A DNA stretch of 34,045 bases, from assembly GCA_015493495.1 (NCBI GenBank), contig WGDB01000067.1, positions 1 through 34,045 of the forward strand, given 5' to 3'. Origin of the DNA: Helicobacteraceae bacterium. GTDB taxonomy: Bacteria > Campylobacterota > Campylobacteria > Campylobacterales > Sulfurimonadaceae. Positions 27,069-34,045 of the stretch are shown one piece after another; the stretch's first letter is position 1, and every line of letters starts with the position of its first letter. The notes under the pieces are model-generated. The model searched no databases and had not been told where the DNA came from. It was given only the letters and a program-made list of their open reading frames with translations. A program made the position numbers and the translations under genes.

Positions 27069-28187
27069 ATGCATCATAGAACTGTGCTCTCCATTTTAAT
27101 AACACTGATGTTTAGTGTCATGCTAAATGCTGCAACAGCTTTAGACAATACTTTTGTTGAAATACCAACACTCCCCAAATTTGAAAAGCCCCAGTTAAAA
27201 GAGGGTGAAAGTGCAGAAGCTTTTGAACAGCGTGTACGAAAACTACATGAGCAGCGCATCGAAGATGTGTTTGAGATTCAAAAGGCTTTTCGTTTAGAGG
27301 TTGAAGATAGAAACAGACGGTTACTAAGAGGAGAAGAACGACAGAGTCCTAGTCTTGTTGACCCCTACGATCCCCTTTTTACAGCTTATGCGTCAGAGAG
27401 CTTTATAGTAGAAAACAGTCCTCAGTTTGAAACACTTTTAGAGCGTGATCAAAAACGCTATAAAGGGCATAACTCATGGTTATTTATAGTCTCCATAGAA
27501 AAGTATCAGCATACAGATCCTGTGCTGTTTGCACGACGTACTGCTGAAATTGTAAAAGCAACTTTTCAAAAGAAACTGGACATTTCAGAACGTAATATTG
27601 TGACTCTGTACAACAAAAATGCTACACTAAAAAATATTGATCAAGAGTTACGAAAACTGTTAAGAAGAGTCCAGCGTAATGATGTGGTCTATTTTTATTA
27701 TTGTGGACATGGACTGAGTAACAAGGCTGGTGAGCAGCTGATCTTGCCTTATGATGGCATGCCTGACTTCTTAGACTCCAAAAACACTCTAAAGCTAGAA
27801 CGTATGTATAATAAGTTTCTAAACTCAAGAGCACTGCGTACCTTCTCTTTTATAGATGCAAGTTTCAATGGTATTACTGAAGGTGTGCCCATACAAAAAG
27901 GTCTTGACAAGGTTGAGATGAGACCTCGTGCAGAAGGTTATCATAAGCGCCTCAACATTTTGAACAGTGCCAGAGGACAAGATACTGCCAATGCCTACCT
28001 TGAAAAGGGATATCGTCTTTTTAGCTATTTCTTGGCACAAGAAGTGTTGACTAAAGAGCAAAATGCAGGGGCACTTTTTGATAGTATTCGTACGATGATA
28101 AGAGAGGTTTCGTATAGTTATGGTGAAGCTTACCTGCAAGAACCGGAGTTCTTTGGTTATAGAGAACTGATGTTAAAAAGTAAATAG
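27069..28187 (+). CDS. Secreted caspase-fold (C14-like) protein with Cys-to-Ser active site, paralogue 1
   Basis: The 372 residues begin with a Sec signal (VLSILITLMFSVMLNAATA). A charged helical region (about 20-125) is followed by a caspase-type p20-like domain (about 130-330). Strand SWLFIVSIEKY comes first, then YFYYCGHGLS with the catalytic His214. FSFIDASFNG follows, where the nucleophile position is Ser265 (AGT) instead of the usual Cys of DAC-F-SG. Either it is a pseudo-protease or it uses Ser. The conserved tail is LQEPEFFGYREL. A longer frame back to 26976 overlaps rsmD and would hide the signal peptide, so I use the ATG at 27069, which also follows a -10 box. It lies 202 bp before its paralogue. 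Confidence 0.82.
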   Translation: MHHRTVLSILITLMFSVMLNAATALDNTFVEIPTLPKFEKPQLKEGESAEAFEQRVRKLHEQRIEDVFEIQKAFRLEVEDRNRRLLRGEERQSPSLVDPYDPLFTAYASESFIVENSPQFETLLERDQKRYKGHNSWLFIVSIEKYQHTDPVLFARRTAEIVKATFQKKLDISERNIVTLYNKNATLKNIDQELRKLLRRVQRNDVVYFYYCGHGLSNKAGEQLILPYDGMPDFLDSKNTLKLERMYNKFLNSRALRTFSFIDASFNGITEGVPIQKGLDKVEMRPRAEGYHKRLNILNSARGQDTANAYLEKGYRLFSYFLAQEVLTKEQNAGALFDSIRTMIREVSYSYGEAYLQEPEFFGYRELMLKSK

Positions 28188-28389
28188 AACCGCCTCTTTA
28201 AAAGTTATAATTGCATAAGTAAAAGATATGATTTTAATAGGCTTAAATCATACTTTAATCTTATACCCCTGAAATGATGTTCTTTATAGAAGTTTTGTGT
28301 AAAATAGCCTCGAACGATATCTTGAGTGATTTCTATGATAAAGTCATATTGACAGACCAACGTAAAGTTGGCTTGTATAAAGAGTAATA
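28188..28389. other. Spacer between the caspase-like paralogues
   Basis: The spacer carries no gene. A possible -10 (TAAAAT near 28308) and a small hairpin CCAAC-gtaaa-GTTGG (28357-28371) lie before the second ATG. The hairpin is 18 bases from the start and could affect translation. Confidence 0.3.
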
Positions 28390-29700
28390 ATGCATAAAAT
28401 ATTTCTAATACTTCTAATAGCAGGTGTGACGTTTCTGTCAGCATCTCCAACAAATGAGAACTATGTTCCCTTGGACATCTCTCAGGTCGAGTTTGAGTCT
28501 ATGGCGGCTTTTCCCAGTACGGAACGCATTAATGTCCCTGAGTTTAAAAAGCTTAAGCCCTTAAAACAAAAACGAAAAGAGCGTAATGCAGCATTTTTAA
28601 GACGGGTAAAAGAGGCTACTGCTAAACGTCAAGAAGAGACCTACCCTATACAAGAGAAGTTCCGTTCAGAAGTTCTTCACCGTAATAATATCGCCAACAG
28701 CTCTAAAAAAGAGTTTGATGAATTGGTCTCGAGTTACAACAAAAAACTGGAGAAGTTTCGTAAGTTTATTGACTATGATGCGAAGGTTCATGGTGGTCCA
28801 AAGGTCTCTCAAAACTATCCACAACTTAAAAATGTTTCAATGGTCTTTGACAACTCGCAACAAGATCCTAACCTTAATGACCCATATCTTCCCCTTTTAA
28901 CAAGCTATGCGCATAAAAAGTACAGTGCTAAAAATGATGAACTTGAGAAGTTGATCAAACGGACTAAAAAAGCTTTTTCAGATTATAAGTCATGGCTGTT
29001 TGTAGTGTCGATCGAAGAGTATAAAGAGGCAGACAGAGTTTTGTTCGCTGACCGTACCGCCAAGGTGATGATCAAAGCATTTCAAAAAAAACTTGGTATT
29101 CCTAAACGTCATATTATTCATTTGGCAAACAAAGAAGCGACTGGTGCCAATATCATTACCCAGTTAGAAAAACTGGTCAAACGTATACAGCCTAAGGACA
29201 CGGTCTATTTCTATTTTGTTGGTCATGGTATTTCTGGGCCTTCTGGTAAAAACTTTTTGTTGGCATATGATGGCTCTGTGGATATGATGAATACACATGG
29301 TTTGGTGAGTATGGACCGTCTCTATAACACTTTTCAGCGTTCTAAGGCAGGACGTACTTTCGCTTTCATTGATGCAAGTTTTATGGGTGTGAGTGATGGT
29401 ATACCTCTTCGAAAAGGTGAGAAGTACACTTCGCCTGTCAAAAAGACCAAGTACCACAAACGTCTTAACATCATCAACGGTGCCCACCGTGACCAGATGT
29501 CCAATGCCTATTTTGAAAAAGGGTACCGCCTCTTCAGTTATTTCTTGATAAAAGGCTCTTTAGCCGAGAAAGAGCAAGACGCTGGGGAGATGTTTGACAC
29601 CTTGCAAAAAGAGATCATGCAGATATCTCAGAGTTACGGACCTGACTTTGCTCAAGAGCCAGAATTTTATGGATATCGCAATCTTGCGATGCACAAGTAG
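28390..29700 (+). CDS. Secreted caspase-fold (C14-like) protein with Cys-to-Ser active site, paralogue 2
   Basis: The 436 residues share layout and motifs with the gene upstream: signal peptide (IFLILLIAGVTFLSAS), a charged helical region (longer here, about 20-190), SWLFVVSIEEY, then YFYFVGHGIS with His279, and FAFIDASFMG with Ser330 (AGT) at the nucleophile position. NIINGAHRDQMSNAYFEKGY and the tail AQEPEFYGYRNL follow. The matched Ser in both copies argues against a random error in one gene. The protein is expected in the periplasm or outside the cell. The barrel gene follows almost directly, so this gene and the barrel form an operon. Substrate and role are unknown. Confidence 0.82.
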   Translation: MHKIFLILLIAGVTFLSASPTNENYVPLDISQVEFESMAAFPSTERINVPEFKKLKPLKQKRKERNAAFLRRVKEATAKRQEETYPIQEKFRSEVLHRNNIANSSKKEFDELVSSYNKKLEKFRKFIDYDAKVHGGPKVSQNYPQLKNVSMVFDNSQQDPNLNDPYLPLLTSYAHKKYSAKNDELEKLIKRTKKAFSDYKSWLFVVSIEEYKEADRVLFADRTAKVMIKAFQKKLGIPKRHIIHLANKEATGANIITQLEKLVKRIQPKDTVYFYFVGHGISGPSGKNFLLAYDGSVDMMNTHGLVSMDRLYNTFQRSKAGRTFAFIDASFMGVSDGIPLRKGEKYTSPVKKTKYHKRLNIINGAHRDQMSNAYFEKGYRLFSYFLIKGSLAEKEQDAGEMFDTLQKEIMQISQSYGPDFAQEPEFYGYRNLAMHK

Positions 29701-29711
29701 AGGTGGATGTG

Positions 29712-30791
29712 ATGACTGTTAATATAAGAATTCTAATTATTTTAGCCCTTCTCTCTAGTGTAGTTCAGGCAGATGACACAGAGAAAAAGATCGTAAAGCA
29801 AGATGGCATTGAAGTGTATGTCGAAACAGATAGAGATGAAAATTTAACAGACAGTGACTATGATGATGAAAAAGATCATGTCTGGGATGTGACAGAAGAC
29901 TATAATCTAAGTGCTGAGTCAGACTTTTATCTAGATGCTGCCTTAGTAGACTATTCTGAATTAACAGACTGTGAAGAGGATGCTAAAGACCAGATGGCAG
30001 ATGAAGCGATGGCTACTGTTGACCTTTGTCCTACGCGTAACATCGATATAAGACTTGGAAATCCTATAGAGATCAAAAAGATCAAAGTCTTGAGTAGAAA
30101 GCTTAGCAATGAGGAGTGTCAGTTAGAAGCAACCTACACGTTAAGTACCTTACCTCCAGAAGAGATGAAAGAGATCGATGCAGTTTGTCAAGATGAGTAT
30201 GATGGTTATGGGGCCTCTTTAATGCTTCAAGATGGGTTGTGGCAAGGTTTACAATTAAGTTTGGGCCTTGGATACTCTGGTGGTGGTATTGGTACCTTCA
30301 ACGTTGATCTACCAGGATTCCCTCCCCAAGTTGAATACAAATACTATTCAGCCCCTATGATCACTACTGATGCCGCATATTTGTACAAGATACCAGTTCC
30401 AAATATGTATGTACTCGCAGGTACTGAGTTAGGGTGGATATTTGAACAGACTAATCAATATACACCAAACATTACAGTGACACCCTTAGATGATGGCGGC
30501 AGTCCATACATCTTCCGTTTTGGTCTCTATGGCGGTTTAGGTTATCGATTTTTTATGAAGTATGATATTCAAGCTCAAATGGGCTATCAATTCCAGTATT
30601 TACATCGAACTATTAATGGGTTTCCTAGTAAAGGTGTGACAACAACATTTGATGGCTTTGAAAACAATATTTTATTTGCACTTCGTGGTGCTTACCATTT
30701 TCATGAGAACTTTGCCGTATGGGTAAAGGGTGAGCATAATACTGTAGCGGCAACAGGAACATTTGGTTTAACTTATGAGTTTTGGGATTAA
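29712..30791 (+). CDS. Outer-membrane beta-barrel protein with acidic periplasmic domain
   Basis: The 359 residues start with a signal peptide (RILIILALLSSVVQA). A very acidic stretch (about 20-75) and a small Cys-containing domain follow, with four Cys in the N-terminal half (LTDCEEDAKD, VDLCPTRN, NEECQLEA, DAVCQDEYD) that could form two disulfides. From about 155 onward it is an eight- to ten-strand barrel of OmpA/OmpW style (QLSLGLGYSGGGIGTF, FRFGLYGGLGYRFFMKY), ending TYEFWD. The ATG at 29712 has GAGG 8 bases upstream. The GTG at 29703 would extend the protein by three residues but lacks ribosome-site room. It directly follows paralogue 2 and probably acts with it at the outer membrane (inference). 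Confidence 0.78.
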   Translation: MTVNIRILIILALLSSVVQADDTEKKIVKQDGIEVYVETDRDENLTDSDYDDEKDHVWDVTEDYNLSAESDFYLDAALVDYSELTDCEEDAKDQMADEAMATVDLCPTRNIDIRLGNPIEIKKIKVLSRKLSNEECQLEATYTLSTLPPEEMKEIDAVCQDEYDGYGASLMLQDGLWQGLQLSLGLGYSGGGIGTFNVDLPGFPPQVEYKYYSAPMITTDAAYLYKIPVPNMYVLAGTELGWIFEQTNQYTPNITVTPLDDGGSPYIFRFGLYGGLGYRFFMKYDIQAQMGYQFQYLHRTINGFPSKGVTTTFDGFENNILFALRGAYHFHENFAVWVKGEHNTVAATGTFGLTYEFWD

Positions 30792-31055: not shown

Positions 31056-34045
31056 ATGTCAAAATTAATTAAAAAATTATTAGTGATAACTTTTTTAGGA
31101 ATGCTTCCACTTCTCTATACAGGATGTGATAGCGGTGAAGCAAACTATTCGCTAGAAGATGTACTCAAGGACCTAAATAACGCACAAGACCTGATCAATG
31201 GTGATATTACATTTAGTACGCCAAGTACCTTGGTAGTAAATGATCAACAGTCAGATGTGACAACAGTACGTTCAAACAGTCCACTGAACTTAGAATACAG
31301 TATAGTAGGTGGTGATGATAAAGAGCTGTTCATAATAGACCCACGTACTGGTAAACTCTCTTTTAAAACACCACCCCTCTACGATGCTCAATCACTTAAC
31401 ACTTATGATGTCATTATCGGTGTTACAACACTTTCAGGTGAACTTTCAACACATGCAATGCTCATCGTTGTTGTTGCAGACATTACAAAAGAAAAGCCTC
31501 TTGTTGATTATGTTGTAGACCGCGTACAAGCAGTTTTGGGTGATGGCCCTATTACCCAGATCAATGCCCGTCCGGCAGATGAGAGTAGTAGTGTTACCTT
31601 TGCGTTGACCGGTAGCGATAAAGATCTTTTTGAGATCGATAAAGAGGGTGTCATCACCTTTAAAAAACCATTACCAATAATAGAAGATGATACAGCTGCA
31701 AGTTACAGTGTCAGTGCTGTAGTGACAGATGGTTATGGAAATAAGATGGTGAGCGATCCTATTACTATCAGTATTGTGGCGAACCCAGACAAGATCCAAC
31801 CTATTATTGTGACGAAGAGTATCGATATTGTAGAAAACTCTTTAGGTGGTATACATATCGAAGTGAGTACTCCAGGTACAGGTGTTGTGAACCAATACAT
31901 CTTAGATGGCACTGACAAAGCACTTTTCGAGATCTCTGATACGGGTCTTTTAAGTCTAAAAGAGGCCAACGATTATGAGAGTGCGCCTAATACTTTTCAT
32001 ATCACACTACAAGTAGGTGATGATAAAGAGAACCTTAGTGAAGTGCAGGCCATCGTAGTGAATATCAAAGACCTTGATGAAGGGTTCACTTTTGAGCATA
32101 TTGGTAATTTTACAGCGATGGTGGGTCAGACTAAAGTGGGACAGATGCTGGCCACTCCAAACACGATCACCAATGTTGATGTCAACTATACGCTGATGCA
32201 GGGAAACTCGCTACTACAGATTGATGACGAAGGTTACATAAGTTTTAAGTCCCCAGCTGTAAAAACACCTAGCTTTTATGTTCAAGTGAAAGCCTACAGT
32301 CAGCTCAATGGTTCTGAGACATTGAGTGATGTCTTTAGTGTAGAGGTCGTAGATGATCCTAGTAAGGTCCCACCTTCTATTGATCAGAACTATCCACGTT
32401 CGACTTCAGTAGTCTCTCCTGCAGACATGACAGTAGCTGTGATGAAGGTTCAAGCTTCTGCAGAGGGCAATGCAACAACATTGAGTTATACTCTTAACGG
32501 TGTAGATGCTACTATGTTCACTATAGATGAAAATGGTAGTCTTTTCTTTGCCAGTGGCATAGAATTTGACCCTAATATAGACAACATCTATGAAGTAGTT
32601 GTCGATGTAAGTGATGAATATGGCAATGAGAAGTCGACAGAGGTGATCTCTGTAGTTGTGCTTGAAAATCCGGACACTATGATTCCTATTATTACCTCTA
32701 GTACATTTAGTGTAGATGAAAACAGCCTGGGTAACCTCACGGTGACAGATTTCGAACGTGGTTCAGGTAAGATCAACAGTTATAGTATTGTAGGGGGCGC
32801 GGATTCCGCACTGTTCACTTATGACAATAAAGTGTTACGTTTTAAAAGTGCTCCTGACTTTGAGTCTGAAGCTTCTGCCAATGGTACTAACACCTACAAC
32901 GTGACCTTAGAGGTGAGTGATGATCTTGGAAACATCAGTGAACCAAGAGAGATCATTGTCAATGTACAAGATGTCAATGAAAAGTTGACTTTTACTTCAT
33001 TAGTGAATTACAACCAGACAGAAGGTACCACTTATGTAGGAACGGTGACAGCAGGACCTGTTTTAGAGATGCCTGCTGAGATTAGCTACAGTCTAGTTGA
33101 CAGTACAGATACCTTTACGATCACAGCTGCTGGTGCTCTGAGTTTTATTGATGCTCCAGTGTATGTTTCTGGCGGTACTAACATTTATACAGTGAGTGTA
33201 GCAGCACACAGTCAGTACAATGGCTCCCTAACTACGCAAGACATCACTGTAAAAGTCTTTTCTGCAAGTTATGCGATTACTTTTGACTCGAACCAGTCAG
33301 AAGCATGGTTTGATCAAAATGTTGTTATGAGTTTTCCTATGACTGCAACTTCAGCTGCAGGAGAGACATTGACTTATAGTATTGAAGACTATACGGGTCC
33401 TGTCTTTAGTATTGATGCCATTACAGGGCTGTTGACAGTCAGTGCCCCTGCTTACAGTTGGGATACAACTGGTGAAGCAAATACTTATCGTGCAACAGTT
33501 GTCGCAACCGACACTAATGGAAATAGTGCAAGAAGACAAGGTGTCTTATATATCAATTCTATTGACGGCACACCGAGTATCAGTACAAGTAGCGATCTCT
33601 CTGTTAACGAAAATGTAAAATCTATTGTGAATCTGGCAGGATTAAGTCTTGTTGGCGGTACTTTAAATTATAGTGTTACAGGTGGTGCAGATGCCAACAC
33701 GTTTGATATCTTAAACAACCTTACTTTAGTGTTTAAAGATGCATCAGGTAAAAACTTTGAAGTCCCTAACGATGCTAATACAGATAATGTTTACGAAGTG
33801 GAGATCACAGCAACAGACAGTGTGAGTCATGTGACAACAACTAAACTGATAACGGTAAGTGTTAACAATGTTACTGAACTACCTAGCAATCTTCTTTTCT
33901 CTTCGATTGAAGATAATGATGGAAGAAGCAGTTATGTCAATATAGCAGATACAACACATCTGCAAGTTGATTCTGATACTTCACTGTTTTTTGCAGGCAG
34001 TAGAAGATATAAAGTGCAATTGGATGCTACTGCATTTAGTGGCCA
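31056..34045 (+). CDS. Large cadherin-repeat lipoprotein, 3' end outside the window
   Basis: An uninterrupted frame runs from ATG 31056 to the window end (about 996 codons, no stop), so the C-terminus is unknown. The signal peptide ends in a lipoprotein-type site (PLLYTGC, Cys24; Tyr at -3 is unusual). About nine cadherin/Ig-like repeats of ~95-100 residues follow. Each has a core of the form Y-SI-GG-D--LF-ID---G-L-FK, a DFE or DYES loop, and Y-VTLEVSDD-GN-S. Repeat ends such as VQDVNEKLTF keep the DxNE calcium site, while others are degenerate (IKDLDEG). The final segment (LLFSSIEDNDGRSSY) departs from the repeat. A calcium-stiffened adhesion or surface stalk is likely; the ligand is unknown. 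Confidence 0.85.
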   Translation, partial: MSKLIKKLLVITFLGMLPLLYTGCDSGEANYSLEDVLKDLNNAQDLINGDITFSTPSTLVVNDQQSDVTTVRSNSPLNLEYSIVGGDDKELFIIDPRTGKLSFKTPPLYDAQSLNTYDVIIGVTTLSGELSTHAMLIVVVADITKEKPLVDYVVDRVQAVLGDGPITQINARPADESSSVTFALTGSDKDLFEIDKEGVITFKKPLPIIEDDTAASYSVSAVVTDGYGNKMVSDPITISIVANPDKIQPIIVTKSIDIVENSLGGIHIEVSTPGTGVVNQYILDGTDKALFEISDTGLLSLKEANDYESAPNTFHITLQVGDDKENLSEVQAIVVNIKDLDEGFTFEHIGNFTAMVGQTKVGQMLATPNTITNVDVNYTLMQGNSLLQIDDEGYISFKSPAVKTPSFYVQVKAYSQLNGSETLSDVFSVEVVDDPSKVPPSIDQNYPRSTSVVSPADMTVAVMKVQASAEGNATTLSYTLNGVDATMFTIDENGSLFFASGIEFDPNIDNIYEVVVDVSDEYGNEKSTEVISVVVLENPDTMIPIITSSTFSVDENSLGNLTVTDFERGSGKINSYSIVGGADSALFTYDNKVLRFKSAPDFESEASANGTNTYNVTLEVSDDLGNISEPREIIVNVQDVNEKLTFTSLVNYNQTEGTTYVGTVTAGPVLEMPAEISYSLVDSTDTFTITAAGALSFIDAPVYVSGGTNIYTVSVAAHSQYNGSLTTQDITVKVFSASYAITFDSNQSEAWFDQNVVMSFPMTATSAAGETLTYSIEDYTGPVFSIDAITGLLTVSAPAYSWDTTGEANTYRATVVATDTNGNSARRQGVLYINSIDGTPSISTSSDLSVNENVKSIVNLAGLSLVGGTLNYSVTGGADANTFDILNNLTLVFKDASGKNFEVPNDANTDNVYEVEITATDSVSHVTTTKLITVSVNNVTELPSNLLFSSIEDNDGRSSYVNIADTTHLQVDSDTSLFFAGSRRYKVQLDATAFSG

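Follow-up and report, generated by a model that had tools for sequence, protein, structure and literature searches.

Tandem exported caspase-fold proteins with serine at the nucleophile position, and a putative envelope partner, in a Campylobacterales genus

The window analyzed here, a 34,045-nucleotide stretch of contig WGDB01000067.1 from a Helicobacteraceae bacterium, contains two adjacent genes, copies A and B, whose products carry a caspase-like domain with serine at the column of the C14 nucleophile cysteine. Have these proteins exchanged one nucleophile for another, or are they caspase folds kept for something other than cutting? The original prediction offered both options, pseudo-enzymes acting as binding proteins or serine-dependent hydrolases.

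A caspase fold with serine at the nucleophile column

27069–28187, forward strand: copy A (P0001), 372 aa; from the ORF list, Pfam and an AF2 model
27861–27863, forward strand: AGT codon of copy A Ser265, at the C14 nucleophile Cys column; coordinate computed from the ORF start
28390–29700, forward strand: copy B (P0002), 436 aa; from the ORF list, Pfam and an AF2 model
29377–29379, forward strand: AGT codon of copy B Ser330, at the C14 nucleophile Cys column; coordinate computed from the ORF start

Both ORFs lie where they were originally placed, and the window sequence bears out the reported nucleophile motifs and the AGT codon in each. Copy A (YYCGHG...DASFNG; His214, Ser265) consists of a signal-like N terminus, a short helix, and a caspase-like domain at about 136–369. 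Copy B (YFVGHG...DASFMG; His279, Ser330) has a signal-like N terminus, a predicted long helix at 66–133, and its caspase-like domain at about 200–434. The two share 39% identity (E 4e-96). Each N terminus (MHHRTVLSILITLMFSVMLNA; MHKIFLILLIAGVTFLSA) opens with a short run of basic residues that leads into a hydrophobic core and then a cleavage site with small residues, which supports the proposal that both proteins are exported. That export would be unusual is a suggestion that we do not uphold. Under a simple hydrophobicity rule, as opposed to a signal-peptide predictor, the N terminus is hydrophobic or of lipoprotein type in 52 of 61 family rows other than A and B, most of the misses being truncated or having uncertain starts, and exported cyanobacterial pseudo-orthocaspases are known (PMC6426788).

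As far as prediction allows, it is settled that both copies have a caspase fold and that serine occupies the nucleophile column. Both exceed the curated cut-off of Pfam Peptidase_C14 (PF00656; E 1.9e-8 for A and 4.1e-9 for B), with matches covering most of the profile. The structure prediction and structural search proposed at the outset agree with this assignment. AF2 models built from a 13-row alignment (pLDDT 76.5 for A, 78.4 for B) have a confident core, with blocks of pLDDT 80–96 over much of the fold and low values in the loop that follows the nucleophile. In Foldseek, these predicted models match the paracaspase MALT1, metacaspases, and caspases (best E 7.3e-13 for A, 1.4e-11 for B). 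A single-sequence phmmer search against the PDB returned nothing significant for either copy, whereas a profile search reached metacaspases. The serine aligns with the cysteine of relatives reading DSCFSG, DACYTG, and DACHSG, and by hhalign with that of DACFSG. A nucleophile elsewhere in A or B was ruled out, since the serine column is unambiguous in the alignments and there is no alternative conserved cysteine.

Among known classes, active orthocaspases (C14B) are defined by the histidine of GHG, the cysteine of D-x-C-x-S-G, and cleavage following Arg or Lys; unlike metacaspases, orthocaspases have no separate p10 domain. The histidine is present in all 11 A/B copies; the cysteine is serine in all 11, and the next conserved serine is lost too. 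Copies A and B do have sequence features of pseudo-orthocaspases, namely a p20-type domain, a substituted His-Cys dyad, and homology to orthocaspases, and would be expected to share the proteolytic inactivity of that class. Their scores against the EACC1-associated caspase model NF047832 (37.8 and 40.0 bits) fall under the NCBIfam cut-off of 140 bits. The PADLOC anti-phage caspase model PDLC02987 matches them at E 4.3e-12 and 6.2e-10 in the caspase domain only, and their neighbors are rsmD, P0003, and a cadherin-repeat protein. A phage origin was rejected, because viral contigs held no A/B relative and the synteny murA–exonuclease–rsmD–A–B is conserved.

One ancestral change, and its maintenance

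Relatives were searched in 228 family genomes and 399 order genomes, and many further distant relatives were found. The proposed tabulation of cysteine and serine by lineage gives a sharp division. Within the window genus, whose named members are MAGs labeled Helicobacteraceae or Campylobacterales, serine is present in 11 of 11 copies from six genomes (AGT in ten, AGC in one) and thus reflects neither chance nor sequencing error. The 58 comparison rows, comprising 57 from other genera and one distant paralogue in genus member G001, have cysteine in 57 cases and glycine in one, and the newly added order-level rows all have cysteine. Five of the eight genus genomes have copies A and B side by side. 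A sixth, G002, has only B intact, and in the other two (G003 and G007) rsmD sits at a contig edge, so the absence of A and B there is uninformative.

The glycine row, from G215 (L073:1498–3189), is a lone relative in another genus, on a long branch; it reads DSGFSC, with a cysteine three residues on from the glycine. Genome G153 (L082, L083, L084) carries six Cys-type orthocaspases of the A/B-related family, and a stretch of about 13 kb holds four of the six.

In the tree, which was rooted at the midpoint for drawing only, all 11 serine rows form one clade (support 100/100; stem of 1.64 changes per column), within which copy A is supported at 89/96 and copy B is the starred clade. Cysteine is the state of every group outside this clade, among them the rows L051 and L052 from other phyla. 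Two independent Cys-to-Ser changes were rejected, since the serine copies form a single clade. Thus, the serine common to A and B is one inherited ancestral change, and its presence in both copies does not carry the implication of selection first drawn from it. The simplest history suggested by these sequences would be a single Cys-to-Ser change and a burst of change, with duplication afterwards.

Selection rather than decay is nonetheless the correct conclusion, on the different ground that A and B have been retained across species. Both are maintained under purifying selection. Between the two closest species, A has a dN/dS (NG86) of 0.099 and B one of 0.032, beside 0.068 for rsmD and 0.023 for murA, and serine is kept in every copy. 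Where the site can be read, in six genomes, B is intact in all six and A in five. In the exception, G002 (one contig, 100% completeness), the interval L078:9387–9906 between rsmD and B holds a frameshifted remnant of the C-terminal part of A (tblastn E 2e-9). Copy A can therefore be lost; no loss of copy B was seen.

A third caspase-like family offers an internal comparison. Its window-genome member lies on another contig than A and B:

L005:1908–3092, reverse strand (genome G000, contig C151): third caspase-like gene; orthologues L152–L156, L158, L160

This family, which has a signal-like N terminus, is present in all eight genus genomes. Its nucleophile column reads alanine in five, glycine in two, and serine in one, against LDAC in the Cys-type relative L137, and the histidine is kept in all eight. 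Judged from these sequences, its cysteine was lost independently of that of A and B. Thus, the genus has retained Cys-less caspase folds twice, and retention of the histidine is not evidence for catalysis here. In the window genome, A, B, and this one distant caspase-like gene were found. A Cys-type C14 protein was not found there or in G002, G004, G005, or G006, four more genus genomes with copy B; some of these genomes are incomplete, although G002 is 100% complete. G001 does carry a Cys-type paralogue (L035).

A partner gene and the envelope setting

Downstream of copy B, the window continues as follows.

29703–30791, forward strand: partner gene P0003, up to 362 aa, with an ATG possible at 29712; TIGR04565 at E 1.7e-4, below its cut-off
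31056–34043, forward strand: cadherin-repeat protein with a lipobox-type start (LLYTGC), running off the contig end

P0003 has a signal-like N terminus, an N-terminal domain with conserved cysteine, and an outer-membrane-barrel-like C terminus. The weak profile match suggests that it forms a barrel, and the gap of 2 bp after copy B suggests that the two share an operon. Promoter and terminator scans at the locus gave results at chance level, and no relative of P0003 was found among solved structures. Across the 228 family genomes, a single-sequence search with P0003 hits the six genus genomes that carry copy B and no others. With the homologous G023 protein added, a profile finds those six and G023 only, always directly after a caspase-like gene. 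As an independent test, a profile built without the G023 protein recovers it at E 7.2e-5. The G023 homologue of P0003 has a 4-bp overlap with the stop of a Cys-type caspase gene, the one closest to A and B in the tree. Since this caspase with its cysteine also adjoins a P0003 homologue, the association of caspase and partner probably predates the loss of the cysteine.

Similar arrangements recur. A cadherin-repeat protein occupies the same position in the remaining copy-B genomes of the genus, and the cadherin-repeat proteins downstream of P0003 have lipobox-type starts. More broadly, in L139, L140, L142, and L143 (G281, G113, G054, and G086), an exported Cys-type orthocaspase overlaps by about 4 bp a downstream envelope protein with an LPP20 domain, one of these domains scoring just under the Pfam cut-off. 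The Campylobacterales caspase family thus looks, from gene order and predicted signals, like an envelope pair of exported orthocaspase and exported partner, and the Cys-type orthocaspase and LPP20-domain protein may be a conserved protease–partner pair in the order. A separate observation concerns the cadherin-repeat runs downstream of P0003 (window 31056–34043; L047, L049), which have similar starts after the lipobox cysteine, G-E-A/T-x-Y-S/T-L, in one to three copies per genome.

A binding role, its rivals, and known systems

Among columns at least 90% conserved in the comparison rows, A and B keep those of the scaffold: Tyr146, Tyr208, His214, Asp229, Asp263, Phe266, Gly268, Arg316, Gln357, and Pro359. 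Along with Cys265, they have lost or vary at Pro217, the serine two positions on from that cysteine, two residues of the KGVAA loop (Val279 and Ala281), Ala300-Gly301, and Asn364. At position 267, serine in 57 of 58 comparison rows has become Met, Asn, Thr, or Asp; at 217, proline in 57 of 58 has become Ser or Ala. The GHG motif, originally described as intact, is so in both window copies, but across the genus the glycine after the histidine is alanine (GHA) in four of six copy-B orthologues. The residue preceding GHG, which lines the S1 pocket in metacaspase structures, is Ser, Asn, or Ala in Cys-type relatives; it is Cys in all A copies (Cys212 in the window) and Val in all B copies. From these columns, the groove looks as if it had been rebuilt after the loss of catalysis, although altered specificity could give a similar pattern.

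We favor, with a probability of about 0.7, the reading that A and B are exported His-Ser pseudo-orthocaspases, binding or scaffold proteins on a catalytically dead fold that work with P0003 at the outer membrane. Both would then lack proteolytic activity and have a periplasmic or outer-membrane location. The old substrate groove, which retains Asp263, Phe266, Gly268, and His214, may serve them for binding peptides or other proteins. The best candidate for such a partner would be the adjacent outer-membrane-like P0003, possibly together with the downstream cadherin-repeat lipoprotein, and A and B could scaffold or sense a surface module without cutting it.

Of the two options first offered, the pseudo-enzyme is therefore favored, on the loss of active-site columns, with the histidine uninformative. 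The other, in which the nucleophile switched from cysteine to serine and a His-Ser dyad would cleave peptides or esters, seems unlikely on the sequence evidence. Such a working dyad needs both residues, and both are invariant in 11 of 11 copies, whereas the nucleophile column of the third family drifts; Asp263, Phe266, and Gly268 around the nucleophile are kept, and purifying selection is strong. However, about a third of A/B domain columns are invariant, so that the invariance of serine and histidine is a weak point. Neighboring active-site columns that are nearly invariant in the Cys family have been lost or vary, among them the glycine after the histidine in four of six B copies; the third family keeps its histidine when the nucleophile column holds Ala or Gly; and the serine variant TbMCA4 is described as inactive yet functional (review, PMC6657590). 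It is doubtful, more specifically, that A and B are Ser-His hydrolases acting in the envelope on the outer-membrane partner, which would make them a natural Cys-to-Ser nucleophile switch in clan CD.

Alternatively, A and B might regulate an active caspase paralogue as decoy or dimer partner, in the manner of cFLIP-L toward caspase-8 or of TbMCA4, which TbMCA3 processes. Such roles are known for other pseudo-caspases (PMC6426788, PMC6657590), and G001 has the Cys-type paralogue L035, but we consider this a long shot because no such paralogue was found in the other five genomes with copy B, some of them incomplete. Finally, that A and B are decaying leftovers of a former protease is very improbable: the copy A remnant in G002 and the long stem under the serine clade could be read that way, but the intact copies and dN/dS of 0.03–0.10 cannot easily be.

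Pseudo-orthocaspases are already known as a kind; what is new here is the HS form, the tandem arrangement, the lineage, and the linked partner. One survey covered 671 prokaryotic metacaspase sequences: serine was the most frequent substitute for cysteine (43% of substitutions), a single N-terminal helix, perhaps a signal peptide, was present in 46, and very few came from Epsilonproteobacteria (PMC3501461). In a larger survey, pseudo-forms made up 858 of 9,994 orthocaspases, mostly from phototrophs and most commonly YS, and a role in photosynthesis was proposed (PMC6426788). Of the papers listed in searches of an open-access library, none dealt with caspase homologues in Campylobacterota. Pseudo-orthocaspases have been tied to photosynthesis on the ground that most reports of them come from phototrophs (PMC6426788); here, one Campylobacterales genus keeps three exported Cys-less caspase-like proteins, through two separate losses.

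It is useful to compare A and B with three known systems. Trypanosoma brucei MCA1 (HS) and MCA4 (YS, a pseudopeptidase) likewise have serine at the nucleophile position of a caspase fold (PMC6426788, PMC6657590), but they are eukaryotic metacaspases without a homologous partner gene, and MCA4 is membrane-linked and processed by MCA3. The cyanobacterial and alphaproteobacterial pseudo-orthocaspases (YS, YA, YN, FS, QC, and HA dyads; PMC6426788) share with A and B a p20-type domain without the His-Cys dyad, serine being common for cysteine, and the cyanobacterial YS forms share an export signal, which is of Tat type. In contrast, A and B keep the histidine, occur in a Campylobacterales host outside the phototroph groups named in that study, and are tandem genes linked to an outer-membrane-like gene. 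Closest of all is the exported Cys-type orthocaspase of G023, from a sister genus (C12; L055:1498–3288, DACFSG), a full-length homologue (hhalign probability 100, E 1.3e-46, 402 columns) with a signal-like N terminus, a QNPNL-type linker, and a P0003-like partner downstream. Unlike A and B, it is single-copy, keeps the cysteine and the SGHGIP, CFSG, KGVAA, and TAG motifs, and has an extra middle region of roughly 160–220 residues. Since homologous partners thus lie beside a Cys-less caspase in one case and a Cys-type caspase in the other, the role of a dead caspase in the bacterial envelope becomes directly testable.
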